Shown here: positions 20,284 to 27,225 of the stretch, one piece after another
How positions within the stretch are numbered: the first letter of the stretch is position 1
How the letters are laid out: the number at the start of each line of letters is the position of its first letter
IMG/VR virus record: IMGVR_UViG_3300024302_000020
Location: 1 to 40,115 of that record
Source of the DNA: a virus
DNA length: 40,115 nt
Reading direction: 5' to 3' (one strand)
Notes under the pieces: generated by a model
What the model saw: only the letters and a program-made list of their open reading frames with translations
What the model was told of the DNA's origin: nothing
The model's database searches: none
Made by a program: the position numbers and the translations under genes

Positions 20284-21319
20284 AGGGTACTTGAGAACGG
20301 TTAGTCCAAGCTATGCAGCACGTGAGAAAGAGCAGAGGGCGCAAGATAAAGAGTATGAGCGTGTCGATTACTTACAAGGTCTATTAGGTGAGGCAGATAC
20401 ACCAGAGCAGAATCTTGCCTCTGACGCGTTTACTATGGATGAGGCCGCACTTATGCAGCAAATGGATCAGACAGATCAGGTCTATCAGCAGGGCAAACAG
20501 GGGACTGGTCTTTTAGGCGGTCATTTATCACCTCAAGAAATTGCAATGAAATTCATGCAAGCACCAGGCGCAAATGCACAGACTCTGGGTCGTGAACAGA
20601 TGGGAAATATCCTGAATCCTAAAGCTGCTGGTGATTTGTATTCTAATTTTAAGCAGGACAAGGATGGCAAAACTTATGCTTACAATAAAAATACACATCG
20701 GATAGAAGAAATTCAGGGGGAAACTATACTCCAGAAAGAACATAGCCCGATGGTTACAATAGATAATAGTGACAAAAGCGATCCGAAGCCTGGCCCAGTG
20801 ACAGGGATGGTCGCTGTAAAAAATCCAGAAACTGGCGGATGGGAAATGCGAGTAGTCCCTAATGGCCCGCTAGATTTAGAGGGGCCTAATAATGTACGGC
20901 TAGAATCAAAAGACTATGCAAAGGATTTTACACCTATAAGAAGAATAAACTCAGGAATAAAGAGCCTTAAAAATACTGTTAACAAGTATGGTGTTACTCC
21001 AGTACCTGGGCAGCTTGGAAATTCACTTGCAGCACAGTCAACCGATATTATGATGTCGCTTAAAGAATATTATAATCTCGGTGTTTTATCTGGCCCAGAT
21101 GAAGTGTTAATGAAAAAGATAACATCAGACCCTACTTCTTTAAAAGCAGCACTTTTGGGTAAAGATGCTTATATTGCCCAGCTTGAAGAGGTAGAAGGAA
21201 TTATGAGAAGAGCTCATAGTTCTTTGGATGAGCAATATTCACACTCTAGGCAAGCAAAGAAACATATTGCAGAAAAGAAGGCATACTTAGAAAAGATTAC
21301 AGCGGATCTTGGGGAATAA
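20270..21319 (+). CDS. Putative ejection protein 2
   Basis: The ATG at 20270 is preferred, with AGGAAGG shortly upstream; this gives 349 residues and a 14-base overlap with the cupin gene. The protein is helical and charged, begins with MGLLEGYLRTVSPSYAAREKEQRAQDKEY, and ends with a long helix (KKHIAEKKAYLEKITADL). The central SDIMMSLKEYYNLGVLSGPDEVLM-like segment is seen in phage internal proteins that bind long helical partners. It probably belongs to the DNA-ejection set. Confidence 0.5.
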   Translation: MGLLEGYLRTVSPSYAAREKEQRAQDKEYERVDYLQGLLGEADTPEQNLASDAFTMDEAALMQQMDQTDQVYQQGKQGTGLLGGHLSPQEIAMKFMQAPGANAQTLGREQMGNILNPKAAGDLYSNFKQDKDGKTYAYNKNTHRIEEIQGETILQKEHSPMVTIDNSDKSDPKPGPVTGMVAVKNPETGGWEMRVVPNGPLDLEGPNNVRLESKDYAKDFTPIRRINSGIKSLKNTVNKYGVTPVPGQLGNSLAAQSTDIMMSLKEYYNLGVLSGPDEVLMKKITSDPTSLKAALLGKDAYIAQLEEVEGIMRRAHSSLDEQYSHSRQAKKHIAEKKAYLEKITADLGE

Positions 21320-21320
21320 T

Positions 21321-23321
21321 ATGGCTACTTTGGACGAGCAAATAGCAGAAGTAGAGGCTAAGCTAAGAGCAAAAAATGGTGGTGCAGCCGTACATCGTGA
21401 GGAAATAAATAAAGGTACATTGGATGAGCAAATAGCAGAAGTAGAGGCCAAGCTACTAGAAAAAAATGGTGGTACAGTAAAAAATACGCCTTCTGATGTC
21501 ATTGGCGATAACTTAGGGTTTATCGGGCAGAATATGAGGTCTGTCATTGAAGGTGTTTCTGCTGCGCCAGGTGGTATATATAATGCTGTAGGAATGATTG
21601 GTGAAATACCAAAATTAATCAGCCCTAAGCCAACATGGAATCCTGACACAATCGATACTAGGCAATATGGATCTCAATTTGCAGATACACTAGGACTCCC
21701 AAAGCCTACATCACCAGCGGCTAAAATATATCATGAGACATTATCAGGGATTTCAGAAGCTGCCGTGCCTATGGGTCTTGTAGGCTTATTAAATAAGGCT
21801 AAAGGAGCGACCAAAGGTGGTGAGGTACTAAGTAAAATAGTGGGAAGCGATGAGGTGGCATCGACTATTGCTAGTGTTGCAGCAGGATCAGGAGCAGCCG
21901 AAGTAGCAAGGCAAGGCGGAGCATCAGAGATGGAGCAGATTCTGTATCCATTGCTCGCTGGTACATCTGCTGGAGCGAGTATCCCGATGGCTAGAGCAGC
22001 AGCATCAGGAACCAGTAGATTGATTGCTCCGATGCTAGGAAAGGGAAGCGAAGGGATTGCTGGAAGATTACTAAATAGAAATGCAGGGCCAAGCTCTCTG
22101 GAGATGCTAGAAAAAGGAAACTTGCCAGGTCTTACAGCAGAAATACCAAACTTTAATCCAACATCGACACAGATAACGGGTGATCCTTGGCTGGCTGGTA
22201 TATCTAGAGCCGGTGAAAATAGCAACTTCGATCCAGGGAGCATTTTAAATAGTCGAGCTAACAATGCTGCTGCAATTAAGAAATACACAGAAAATGCAAC
22301 AGGTACGCCAGAATCAAGACAGGAAATCCTTGATGTTGTTGGGCTATTAAGCCAGGAAATGACAAACCCTATGCGACAGCGGAATAATCCAGTTAATATT
22401 GATAATGTATATTCTTCTATTAATAGCGCAATAAAAAAACACAAAGGAAACACAGGAATCGTTACAGGTCTTGAGCGAGTAAAAAAGAATTTACCTGACA
22501 CAGTAAAGTCCAACTCATCTGAAATAGACCTACTGACCCTGACTCGTAACAATAAGCAATCAGAACTAGGATTCAATGAAGTTTTAAATGCTAAACAGAA
22601 TATTGATGAGATGTTGCGTACGCCAAAAGCTCTGGCAGACAAAAAAACAATGTCTGTACAGAAGGCAGGAAACGCACTTAAAGGAGTGAAAACGCAACTT
22701 AACAAGTCTTTATCAGATGCTGAGCCAGAGTATATGGATACGGTGACTGACCAAGCCGTGGCACTAAAAGAATATGATCAGTTGGTGGCTGCTGATAATC
22801 TGGTGACAAGAGCTACAGGGACATCACCCTTAATATCTAATGCTGGTGGAGTACAGAATGAAGTTTTCCCGCTTCAATCGAATTCAATGCAAAGGTTTTT
22901 AACCAATAAAAAAATGCTATCTAGCATGAATGATGGACAGATTGATATATTAGAAAATGCTAGGAAAGCATCCGCATCACAAGCAAGAAACAATGCGGGT
23001 AGAGCAACAGGATCAAATACCGCTCAAAACCTGCAAATGTCGCAGCTAATTAAGGATGATATTGCAAATACATTGGCTGGGAGTAACGACCCTGGTTTTA
23101 TTGCTAAAGGGCTGAGTAATATAGTTGATAGAGCATCGAAGTATATATCAACTGGGAATAATGAGCAGATTTATCAGCTATTGATTGATGCCGACCTAGA
23201 CCCCGCACTCGCTGCTAGGCTAATGAGAGAGCATGCTTTAGGAGGTAAAAGCACGATGACTAGGACGACAACAGGTGGCGCAAGGGGGGCGTTATACTCG
23301 CAAGATCCTAGGGGCTATTAA
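21321..23321 (+). CDS. Large putative ejection protein with N-terminal tandem repeat
   Basis: From the ATG at 21321 (GGGGA upstream) this encodes 666 residues, the largest of the ejection-type set. Two 30-residue coiled-coil units (TLDEQIAEVEAKL...KNGG) stand at the N-terminus, with DNA period 90 (21331 and 21421). Residues 145-220 are Ala/Gly-rich and could cross a membrane (ASVAAGSGAAEVARQ). The rest is helical. Large Ala-rich helical proteins at the end of the structural cluster commonly extend the tail channel during DNA entry. Its stop overlaps the convergent gene at 23318. Confidence 0.6.
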   Translation: MATLDEQIAEVEAKLRAKNGGAAVHREEINKGTLDEQIAEVEAKLLEKNGGTVKNTPSDVIGDNLGFIGQNMRSVIEGVSAAPGGIYNAVGMIGEIPKLISPKPTWNPDTIDTRQYGSQFADTLGLPKPTSPAAKIYHETLSGISEAAVPMGLVGLLNKAKGATKGGEVLSKIVGSDEVASTIASVAAGSGAAEVARQGGASEMEQILYPLLAGTSAGASIPMARAAASGTSRLIAPMLGKGSEGIAGRLLNRNAGPSSLEMLEKGNLPGLTAEIPNFNPTSTQITGDPWLAGISRAGENSNFDPGSILNSRANNAAAIKKYTENATGTPESRQEILDVVGLLSQEMTNPMRQRNNPVNIDNVYSSINSAIKKHKGNTGIVTGLERVKKNLPDTVKSNSSEIDLLTLTRNNKQSELGFNEVLNAKQNIDEMLRTPKALADKKTMSVQKAGNALKGVKTQLNKSLSDAEPEYMDTVTDQAVALKEYDQLVAADNLVTRATGTSPLISNAGGVQNEVFPLQSNSMQRFLTNKKMLSSMNDGQIDILENARKASASQARNNAGRATGSNTAQNLQMSQLIKDDIANTLAGSNDPGFIAKGLSNIVDRASKYISTGNNEQIYQLLIDADLDPALAARLMREHALGGKSTMTRTTTGGARGALYSQDPRGY

Positions 23322-24620: not shown

Positions 24621-24812
24621 CTAAAATGGTATGTCATCAAAATAGCTCTGGCAAGAATTCACCGTTGCTGCAAATCCTTCGGGTGGTGTGGATTTAAAAT
24701 GCGTACAGAATGAATCGTCCTTTTCGAAATAAGAACAAGTATGACAGCACTTAGGCATCCGTACTGATAGTGAATCCCAATATTTTGTGACAAAATCTGG
24801 TTCTTTATACAT
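24621..24812 (-). CDS. Small Cys-rich protein, 63 aa
   Basis: The product has PKCCHTCSYFEKDDSFCTHFKS and a later NSCQSYF, giving a CxxC-type metal knuckle with a C-terminal Cys. Similar small zinc proteins are common in phage replication clusters. The start overlaps the helicase stop by 8 bases, and the stop lies 8 bases before the VRR-NUC start. Confidence 0.6.
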   Translation of the reverse strand: MYKEPDFVTKYWDSLSVRMPKCCHTCSYFEKDDSFCTHFKSTPPEGFAATVNSCQSYFDDIPF

Positions 24813-27225
24813 CGCTCCAACTCCTAGTTAATACCTTATTAAATCGTCCTTCCCTTATAAATTCTATCGATGATGGATGTTGTCCTAATTCTTGCAAGTC
24901 TATTGCAATATAATCAAGTGATGAAAAATCATCGTTATACGTGCCAGATTTAAAAAAAATTTCTTGAAGTAATTGCCTCGCTTTTGAGCCGGCATAACCA
25001 TCATGGGTAACGCATAAATACTCAGTGACTGGGGGATCAGATAGCGCACCATAATAAGTGACTGCTAACATCTCCTTGCCGGATGCTTTTGATATATGCT
25101 TCCTCCATATCCAACTGGTGACCTCTATCTCTGTACCTTCTATCCCCATGATGTCGTCATCTCTGAGTGAAAGCTTTGGCTTTTCTGGTAATGGAAATGG
25201 CTCTCCACATGCAGGGCAGACGGTCACTGATATATAGACAATCTCCCCACATTCGTCACATATTTTTACCGGTGCTTCACCCGTGCCTTCACCTTTTTTA
25301 TTCGGTGGGGTAATATTGGTTATCGGCCCATGCGCTTCAACCACGCCTGCAAAATCCAGAACTAAGCAATGGTCTGTGTGCGATTTAGGACGCATTCCCC
25401 TGCCTGCCATTTGAACATACAGGCTGGCTGACATTGTGGGCCTCAGCATAGCGATAAGATCGATGTCTGGGTAATCAAAGCCTGTCGTTAAAACATTTGC
25501 ATTCGTTAACGCTTGTATCTTACCTGTTTTGAAATCCTCAATGATTTGCGCTCTTTCTTTCTGCTTTGTCTCACCGGTAATACATTCAGCAATAACGCCA
25601 TTATCAATCAATATATCTCTTATATGGAATGCGTGTTCCACACCAGAGCAGAAAAACAACCAAGCTTTCCTATCTTGTGCAAGTTTAATCACTTCTTGCA
25701 CTACCTCCTGATTAGTCTGGTCATTATCAACTGCTGCATGAAGTTCAGACTCTATAAATTCACCCCCCCTCTTATGTACTTGGCTAGTATCGAGCTTGAT
25801 ACTTGTTATTTTTGACCTCAGTGGCGATAAAAAACCTTGTTCTATCAATTGTTCAATAGAGACGGGATTAATCAATTCATCAAATAATGCAGGCTCGTCA
25901 GTAATTAATCCGTGCCCCAATCTGTAAGGCGTGGCCGTCAATCCAATCACTCTCAATAATGGGTTAATAGCGAGCAACTCGCTCAACAGCAATCTATATC
26001 CGCCCTCATTTTTATGGCTGACAAGATGGCAATTATGAACAGCTACATCATTAGCGAAGTAAGAAGGATGTCCACTGACTTGAATGTTGAAAACAAGTGT
26101 AGGGCTTTCTCGTTTCTCACACGAAACACTGACCAACCTAATTTTGTTAGAAATTCTGTTTTCTTTAAATCTTTTTCTTGAGAAAGAATAGTTCCGTGAC
26201 TTCCACCATCCAATTCTATTGCTATCATAAGCTTTTGATTCCCTATATCTACTTTGTAACAATTCGGATATATTCCATTTCGATGCCCTGCATGTGTCTT
26301 TATTGGAAACTCCGCAGTCCAACCATCTCCCAATGCGTGAAGTAATGCTAATTGTGGCAAAGATAGCAATTGCCCGTTCCCTCCACGATTTATAGGCTTG
26401 TGTTTCAATTCCTTTAGCCTCTTGCTTATCTTTTGTCTTGCTTGTGATGTCAATACAGTCGGATGTGATCTCTTTGCACACTTTATTGAGCAAAAATTTT
26501 GCTTGTTCCAGAGAGGTTCTGGTTGAGCTGATTTTATCTTCCCATCTACAATCTTTATCCAAGGTTTGAACTTGTTTCCACAAAGACCGCATACTTTCGA
26601 TGCTGAATAAATCCTCTCCGTTCTCCAAGGCTTTAGCTTCAACCCATCCTCTGTTTGTGAAGAATTTATGGTTTTCTGTACATTGGATTGTTTTTCCATT
26701 ACTTAACTCCAGTTTATATAAATCATTTGTGGTTTTGCATGAAGTTGCCTCAACAACTCCAACTCCGCATTGATTATATACTATGTCGCCACATCTCACC
26801 TTGTCAATATCAATATATCCATTAGGAGTAGATATTTGTGTTCCTTTTACAAAACACTCATCTATTATCACCAGGTCAATATGCCCTATCTGTTCTGCTT
26901 TATTTCTAACAGATTGAATGCCTGCAAAAGTGATTGGCTCTCCTAGCTGCTTCATTCTGAGACTGGATGAGTAAATCCCCAAGGGCGCACCTGGCCAGTG
27001 CTGCATCATTTTCTCTGCATTTTGAGATATTAATTCCTTTACATGTGTCAGCATTAATACACGGGTTTCGGGCCAACTGTGTAGTGCATCTTTACATAGA
27101 GCGGCAACTATATGGCTTTTGCCTGATCCTGTAGGTAACACCAAGCAGGGATTGCCCTTATTTTTTTCGTTAAACCATTTATACAAGTCATCAATGGCAC
27201 GTTGTTGATATTCTCTTAATTTCAT
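24805..27225 (-). CDS. SF2 DEAH-type helicase, interrupted by an intein
   Basis: The 806-residue precursor would splice to a 531-residue superfamily 2 helicase. Walker A is PTGSGKS (31-37). The Walker B/DEAH box is DE|CH, split between E123 and C399 by a 275-residue intein (124-398). Motif III is TATP (429-432), and motif VI is QMAGRGMRP (about 604-612). A Cys4 zinc knuckle (CDECG/CPACG, about 655-672) follows. The start overlaps the nuclease gene stop (ATGA), and GGAGG precedes it by 7 bases. Place among Sak4, DUF669 and exonuclease genes points to phage replication/recombination. Without splicing, the ATPase centre would be disrupted. Confidence 0.9.
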   Translation of the reverse strand: MKLREYQQRAIDDLYKWFNEKNKGNPCLVLPTGSGKSHIVAALCKDALHSWPETRVLMLTHVKELISQNAEKMMQHWPGAPLGIYSSSLRMKQLGEPITFAGIQSVRNKAEQIGHIDLVIIDECFVKGTQISTPNGYIDIDKVRCGDIVYNQCGVGVVEATSCKTTNDLYKLELSNGKTIQCTENHKFFTNRGWVEAKALENGEDLFSIESMRSLWKQVQTLDKDCRWEDKISSTRTSLEQAKFLLNKVCKEITSDCIDITSKTKDKQEAKGIETQAYKSWRERAIAIFATISITSRIGRWLDCGVSNKDTCRASKWNISELLQSRYRESKAYDSNRIGWWKSRNYSFSRKRFKENRISNKIRLVSVSCEKRESPTLVFNIQVSGHPSYFANDVAVHNCHLVSHKNEGGYRLLLSELLAINPLLRVIGLTATPYRLGHGLITDEPALFDELINPVSIEQLIEQGFLSPLRSKITSIKLDTSQVHKRGGEFIESELHAAVDNDQTNQEVVQEVIKLAQDRKAWLFFCSGVEHAFHIRDILIDNGVIAECITGETKQKERAQIIEDFKTGKIQALTNANVLTTGFDYPDIDLIAMLRPTMSASLYVQMAGRGMRPKSHTDHCLVLDFAGVVEAHGPITNITPPNKKGEGTGEAPVKICDECGEIVYISVTVCPACGEPFPLPEKPKLSLRDDDIMGIEGTEIEVTSWIWRKHISKASGKEMLAVTYYGALSDPPVTEYLCVTHDGYAGSKARQLLQEIFFKSGTYNDDFSSLDYIAIDLQELGQHPSSIEFIREGRFNKVLTRSWSDV
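26032..26856 (-). mobile_element. Class 1 mini-intein in the helicase DEAH box
   Basis: The 825-bp insert encodes 275 residues. Splicing residues are all present: Cys1 (block A, CFVKGTQISTPNGYIDIDKV), block B TENH with the catalytic H63, block F LVFNIQVSGHPSYFANDVA, and block G ending His274-Asn275 followed by extein Cys. It lies between E and C of the helicase DECH motif, a conserved nucleotide-binding site of the kind inteins favour. The frame has no recognisable LAGLIDADG or HNH nuclease between blocks B and F. The linker (about residues 85-245) looks like the by-product of another gene read in the +1 frame. Confidence 0.92.
26043..26699 (-). CDS. Vsr/DUF559-like homing endonuclease overprinted inside the intein
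   Basis: A 218-codon gene lies wholly within the intein DNA, on the same strand, in the +1 frame. GGAG stands 7 bases before its ATG, in codons that encode intein block B (ELSNGKT). Residues 37-74 hold CxxC and CxxxC (C37, C40, C70, C74), a zinc finger-like region. Residues 148-196 carry YKVDIG, IAIELDGGSH and KDLKKTEFLTKLGWSVFRVRN, the strand-helix-strand pattern of Vsr-like/DUF559 nucleases in the PD-(D/E)xK superfamily. Candidate catalytic residues are D151, E162, D164, H168 and D177. It ends 11 bases before the intein end. Inferred role: cutting intein-free helicase alleles to drive homing. Confidence 0.82.
   Translation of the reverse strand: MEKQSNVQKTINSSQTEDGLKLKPWRTERIYSASKVCGLCGNKFKPWIKIVDGKIKSAQPEPLWNKQNFCSIKCAKRSHPTVLTSQARQKISKRLKELKHKPINRGGNGQLLSLPQLALLHALGDGWTAEFPIKTHAGHRNGIYPNCYKVDIGNQKLMIAIELDGGSHGTILSQEKDLKKTEFLTKLGWSVFRVRNEKALHLFSTFKSVDILLTSLMM

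Follow-up and report, generated by a model that had tools for sequence, protein, structure and literature searches.

The window, by which we mean the whole 40,115-nucleotide stretch of DNA analysed here (a 40-kb virus record, IMG/VR IMGVR_UViG_3300024302_000020), carries a helicase gene, an intein inserted in it and a nuclease gene nested within the intein, all on the minus strand. The features at this locus are as follows (points mark codon or splice junctions).

24805..27225 (-): precursor of an SF2 (ResIII/Helicase_C) phage DNA helicase with an intein, 806 aa, read 27225→24805, with zero internal stops
26032..26856 (-): intein, 275 aa, read 26856→26032, splitting helicase motif II between DE and CH (DE·CF...HN·CH)
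26043..26699 (-): nested gene for a putative homing endonuclease, 218 codons, read 26699→26043 in the +1 frame of the intein from an ATG start
26707..26710 (-): Shine-Dalgarno GGAG, 7 nt upstream of the nuclease ATG, doubling as the Glu codon of the intein motif LELSNG
26697..26699 (-): ATG start of the nuclease, straddling the intein codons AAT·G (Asn-Gly)

The helicase precursor matched the Pfam families ResIII (3.5e-18), Helicase_C (5e-17) and Intein_splicing (5e-12), as well as PHROG 16, DNA helicase (7e-95). All splicing blocks of the intein were present, namely Cys1, block B TxxH (T60, H63), block F (GHPSYFAND), block G (HN) and the Cys at C+1, and a Pfam scan of the intein reading frame found no nuclease domain. 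In the AF2 model of this frame, residues 1-90 and 240-275 were confident and residues 170-236 fell under pLDDT 50; the best PDB folds were inteins, including gp41-1 (TMt 0.84), so that the requirement for a Hint fold is met. In blocks and fold, the element therefore satisfies the criteria of a class 1, cis-splicing intein; its self-excision and the ligation of the exteins are inferred, without splicing data. A group I or II intron was considered and rejected: neither strand gave an Rfam match at E up to 0.5, and no stop interrupts the host frame.

The nested ORF begins just upstream of block B and its stop ends 11 bases short of the intein end, so that block B and most of block F are doubly encoded. 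Its product consists of an N-terminal Cys4 finger, a GGNG motif and a C-terminal DUF559/EDxHD domain (Vsr-like PD-(D/E)xK). The ORF matched Pfam DUF559 (PF04480) at E=8e-8, above the curated cut-off, and the same profile was matched by 33/33 nuclease homologues. Residues D151, E162, D164, H168 and D177 were invariant in the 33 sequences, as were the finger cysteines C37, C40 and C74, with C70 nearly so. When the single nested ORF was used for a PDB sequence search, no match was found, and PHROGs holds no family for it; only the family profile and the fold search gave PDB matches. The profile hit 3hrl, an endonuclease-like protein, at 9e-7 and I-Bth0305I weakly (E=0.03). The structure predicted from an alignment of the window and the fetched loci had a pLDDT of 83 and a pTM of 0.51, and its top PDB fold was the catalytic domain of I-Bth0305I (3r3p; prob 0.99, but E 0.011 and TMt 0.57). 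I-Bth0305I is an example of the EDxHD enzymes, a recognised homing endonuclease family (PMC3943268). Because the fold match has an E of about 0.01 and the pTM is 0.51, the fold identity rests on the sequence profile and the catalytic residues. On these two grounds the nested ORF is a DUF559/EDxHD nuclease; its cleavage activity is inferred.

The original prediction, made from the sequence alone, had described a complete intein without an in-frame nuclease, and in its +1 frame a 218-codon gene with these coordinates, ATG, GGAG 7 nt upstream and end 11 bases before the intein end, encoding a Cys4 finger and a Vsr/DUF559-like core built on the five residues above. All of these claims held, with only C70 of the finger short of full invariance.

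Both frames were then found together in other phages. In tblastn searches against named phages, they were co-located in Vibrio phages (the 159E43 group, 104E43.1 and the 1.194.O group), and in every such match the nuclease was offset by one base from the intein frame; the same nested arrangement was present in CP-T1 and Pseudomonas phage MR14. When viral contigs were searched with the nuclease alignment, 48 loci were recovered; of these, 41 were nested in +1 within an open helicase ORF, while the remaining 7/48 were distant DUF559 genes without helicase-intein context. With three bacterial MAG contigs that also showed the arrangement, the nuclease search gave 44 nested loci in all. These three contigs (L056, L057 and L058, titled Actinomycetes, Planctomycetota and Polyangiaceae) may be prophages or misbinned phage contigs.

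A second search, with the intein alignment, yielded 75 complete copies. In 75/75 the host frame was open and the nuclease intact in +1, with no copy carrying it in frame or in +2; nearly all were inserted between DE and C. This search was not fully blind to the nuclease, as the middle of the alignment is encoded by nuclease DNA, although its seed patterns came from the splicing blocks. The Intein_splicing domain was detected in 37/38 host ORFs scanned, and DE·CF and HN·C in all or nearly all of the 38. The nested arrangement is thus a real, conserved and recurrent architecture, and its fixation in +1 is shown. The original prediction had presented it as the unusual architecture of one locus; this held, and extends to a family, and also to a second origin described below.

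A sequencing or assembly frameshift that masks an ordinary in-frame fusion of intein and nuclease deserves mention, since mobile inteins usually have their nuclease fused in frame. However, the same frame relation recurs in dozens of independent assemblies and in the isolate phages CP-T1, MR14, 104E43.1 and 1.194.O, and in each of these the intein frame is intact through block G, which leaves this explanation practically no room. Sequencing error, absence of a nuclease match and lack of conservation of the frame had been named in advance as the findings that would refute the prediction, and none of the three applied.

Two loci (L035 and L048) at first appeared to contain broken nucleases; this was rejected, as both are intact with a later start. 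In two others (L033:1212-4847 and L058:759-4547), one helicase gene holds two inteins: the out-of-frame DUF559 intein occupies motif II, and a classical LAGLIDADG intein with its nuclease in frame lies at a different site.

The codons of the intein motif V/L-E-L-S-D/N-G hold both the GGAG and the ATG of the nuclease (in relatives, GTG GAG TTG TCC GAT G). In a second group of loci the nuclease starts about 40 codons later, after a GAGGT encoded by DEV. Across both groups, a Shine-Dalgarno was found at the nuclease start in 30/36 non-redundant loci, compared with 45/535 (8%) of control ATGs, taken from the same frame elsewhere in the same genes. As the loci are related, neither these counts nor those of the shuffles described below are independent trials.

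The nuclease might instead be produced by programmed ribosomal frameshifting out of the intein frame, yielding a fusion of the intein N-part and the nuclease without internal initiation. One mRNA indeed carries both frames, which overlap from block B onward, and in several loci the nuclease frame is open for some distance upstream of the ATG. Against this, a normally spaced Shine-Dalgarno stands at the start far more often than at controls, the family uses two start positions, each with its own Shine-Dalgarno, and in L035 and L048 a stop closes the nuclease frame just upstream of the later start. The conserved start signal is shown, and internal initiation is therefore favoured; we regard frameshifting as very improbable. 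Translation of the nuclease itself is inferred.

Constraint on the two frames was assessed by codon shuffling and by comparison of relatives. When synonymous codons were shuffled so as to keep the intein protein of the window, the nuclease frame remained open in 0.3% of 2000 trials; when the nuclease protein was kept, the intein frame acquired a mean of 13.9 stops and was never free of them (2000 trials). At a G+C-rich MAG locus, intein-preserving shuffles left the nuclease frame open in up to a third of trials. Between relatives, nuclease codon position 3, which is intein position 1, changed about twice as often as nuclease positions 1 and 2. Identity in the intein frame was far above the value expected from nuclease constraint and stop avoidance only at the two ends of the overlap (0.68 and 0.79 vs 0.32 and 0.34), where the splicing blocks sit. 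Two stretches of the overlap are distinguished.

26046..26102 (-): dual-constrained stretch, nuclease C-terminus and intein block F; identity 0.72 and 0.79, intein-frame expectation 0.34
26103..26582 (-): middle of the overlap, linker filler; nuclease frame conserved at 0.48-0.73, intein frame near expectation

This identity profile, together with the low-confidence model of the middle, indicates that in its middle part the intein frame merely reads through the nuclease gene without stops, and that true dual coding is limited to the edges. Codon shuffles, substitution patterns and the Shine-Dalgarno show that both frames are maintained.

These data also bear on the possibility that the open +1 frame is a chance product of base composition or of the coding constraints on the intein. 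The survival of the frame in about 0.3% of intein-preserving shuffles of the window, and in up to a third at the G+C-rich locus, is what can be said for it. On the other side stand the match to a curated family, the invariant catalytic residues in 33 sequences, the excess of third-position changes and the conservation in 75/75 inteins, and chance is as good as excluded; homology and conservation are far stronger evidence here than either shuffle test. An initial estimate of 3 in 100,000 for such a frame was a fair order of magnitude for one uniform-base frame, but is not a decisive test.

Elsewhere in the window, positions 21731-22705 (-) hold a 324-aa open frame antisense to a 670-aa ORF (21309-23321, +); the antisense frame has no Pfam match.

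Helicases without the intein exist: such empty DECH alleles are 92% identical in helicase protein. One of them (L066), from metagenome 3300028706, aligns across the empty DE·CH site, and the same metagenome also has a contig bearing an intein identical to that of the window. Downstream of the insertion site, identity to the empty allele drops to 0.77 over 270 bp. This could reflect co-conversion, but the signal is weak and no more than suggestive, as another region of the alignment is equally low.

The intein-free alleles are shown; homing is inferred. We consider it highly probable that the locus is a mobile intein and that its homing endonuclease is encoded by a gene of its own, which lies within the coding DNA of the intein but in another reading frame, although expression, splicing and cleavage data are lacking and the cutting site is likewise an inference. 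In this model, one mRNA would be read in two ways. Ribosomes in the helicase frame would make the helicase-intein precursor, in which the splicing blocks at both ends would form a Hint domain that cuts out the intein and ligates DE to CH, so that helicase motif II is made whole again. Other ribosomes would initiate at the internal ATG, behind the Shine-Dalgarno in the intein-motif codons, and release a free 218-aa nuclease. During co-infection, helicase alleles that lack the intein would be cleaved by the nuclease at their motif II codons, and repair of the break would copy the intein and the nested gene into the cut allele.

An objection is that the nested nuclease may be kept for a job other than homing, such as excluding competing phages or regulating the host gene, like some domesticated homing nucleases. 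In its favour, no degenerate nuclease copy was found among the 75 complete inteins. Free homing nucleases, by contrast, tend to degenerate once they are fixed; this usual decay cycle is therefore not documented for these inteins. However, the scattered empty alleles and the single fixed site in helicase motif II fit homing. The lack of decay is also expected if the overlap couples the frames, because a frameshift in the nuclease would destroy the host frame too, and this may be why no decayed copy was seen. We thus judge a non-homing role very unlikely and retain the mobile intein.

As for its origin, it is likely that a nuclease gene invaded a mini-intein out of frame and that the host frame was thereafter kept free of stops. 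Invasion is favoured over de novo overprinting because, in the middle of the overlap, conservation marks the nuclease frame as the one that carries information, and the intein frame there is low-confidence filler. 'Overprinting' in the de novo sense, the term first applied to this locus, therefore probably has the direction wrong. The checks that had been proposed with it, for the same nested frame in related SF2 helicase inteins and for constraint in both frames, are met by the 44 nuclease-found loci and 75/75 complete inteins and by the maintenance of both frames, with dual constraint at the overlap ends.

Several known systems resemble the locus in part. Classical bifunctional inteins (LAGLIDADG or in-frame HNH) likewise unite intein and homing nuclease in one mobile element, but there the nuclease is a domain of the intein protein, whereas in the window it is a separate protein from a shifted frame; with no nuclease in the intein frame of the window and +1 in 75/75 complete inteins, the locus is not of this type. 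In fractured genes, EDxHD/Vsr-like homing nucleases are reported to lie between the two parts of a split intein (Dassa et al. 2009, NAR 37:2560). Such genes share with the window the nuclease superfamily, an intein in a phage replication gene and a nuclease that is not fused in frame; but host gene and intein are there in two pieces with the nuclease between them, whereas the helicase ORF of the window continues over the nuclease through all 806 aa and the definition (host gene and intein as two ORFs) is not met. The nearest solved fold, I-Bth0305I (PDB 3r3p), is an EDxHD homing endonuclease of a phage group I intron, with a weak profile match over the catalytic domain. It resides in an RNA intron, whereas the window has no Rfam intron, and its DNA-binding part differs from the Cys4 finger seen here.

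The ShiLan element and the Pacc40 gp60 insertion, with an out-of-frame HNH in a phage DNA methylase (PMC11855218), likewise combine a phage gene whose frame remains open with a homing-type nuclease read in another frame. These insertions have no splicing blocks and are thought to be retained in the host protein, whereas the host frame of the window contains a complete intein and so does not qualify as an insertion without a splicing element. In addition, the ShiLan nuclease is HNH rather than DUF559/EDxHD and is reported without a Shine-Dalgarno (PMC11855218), while the window family has a conserved one before the start.

An out-of-frame nuclease inside an intein was not described in the full-text literature searched, which excluded bioRxiv 10.1101/2025.01.02.630785 and Dassa et al. 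2009; a survey of mycobacteriophage inteins (PMC5050341) makes no mention of out-of-frame nucleases. The bioRxiv paper is a survey of actinobacteriophage inteins whose title contains 'Non-Canonical Architecture' (Gosselin et al. 2025; ref. 7 of PMC11855218). An earlier mention there, which is the main risk to novelty, or in Dassa et al. 2009 remains possible. The architecture is best filed as a variant of mobile inteins, and the out-of-frame nuclease within the intein is apparently new.

The arrangement is not confined to helicases. A terminase intein of a Rhodobacteraceae phage, matched solely via its splicing blocks, holds an HNH_3 gene (2e-13) in +2, and in Tetrasphaera phage TJE1 and Acinetobacter phage Highwayman an HNH gene is likewise nested in a terminase intein. 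A search of viral contigs with the HNH proteins gave 80 loci. Nesting out of frame in an open TerL-intein ORF was seen in 60/80, mostly in +2 with a few in +1, and the Intein_splicing domain was present in 34/38 TerL host ORFs scanned. Another 10/80 were fractured: TerL and the intein N-part stop near the HNH start, and a short ORF of the intein C-part and C-extein begins near the HNH end. The remaining 10/80 were free HNH genes adjoining TerL.

L148-L227; L008, L143, L144: HNH_3 loci, nested in terminase inteins, with fractured and free relatives

The nested out-of-frame architecture thus arose at least twice, with DUF559 in helicases and HNH in terminases. In a tree of 59 HNH proteins, the nested, fractured and free states were mixed, with at least 10 changes; well supported branches, however, force just 1 change for the fractured state, so the number and direction of the transitions are not settled.

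A bolder reading is that out-of-frame nesting is general and repeatedly evolved, and that natural split inteins arose through it as the missing intermediate. On this reading, a nuclease with its own start would already be in place, and a stop in the intein filler plus a new start before block F would give the fractured layout. That layout does occur in the same HNH family as the nested copies (10 loci), but for now we lean slightly against this reading and offer it only tentatively.

Such inteins are easily overlooked. Intein surveys translate the host frame alone, so that these inteins are scored as nuclease-free and a real nuclease is missed; in GenBank the loci are annotated as a plain helicase, a hypothetical protein or a terminase. 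The arrangement couples two selfish functions within a single DNA segment, in which a frameshift in the nuclease also disrupts an important host gene. At >200 codons, the overlap is moreover unusually long for two genes on the same strand, with constraint clearly divided between the frames. The architecture may help to explain the origin of naturally split inteins, which becomes directly testable with nested, fractured and free-standing states in one HNH family at terminase genes.

Two further loci were observed. At L205:1673-3019, a terminase with an apparent mini-intein is followed directly by a free-standing HNH gene of the nested family. In Salmonella phage CF-SP2 (L145:1811-4775), a split intein divides uvsW at the motif II site that is also used in the window (NDE·CF...HN·CH), and a NUMOD3/TnsA-like ORF overlaps both halves out of frame.
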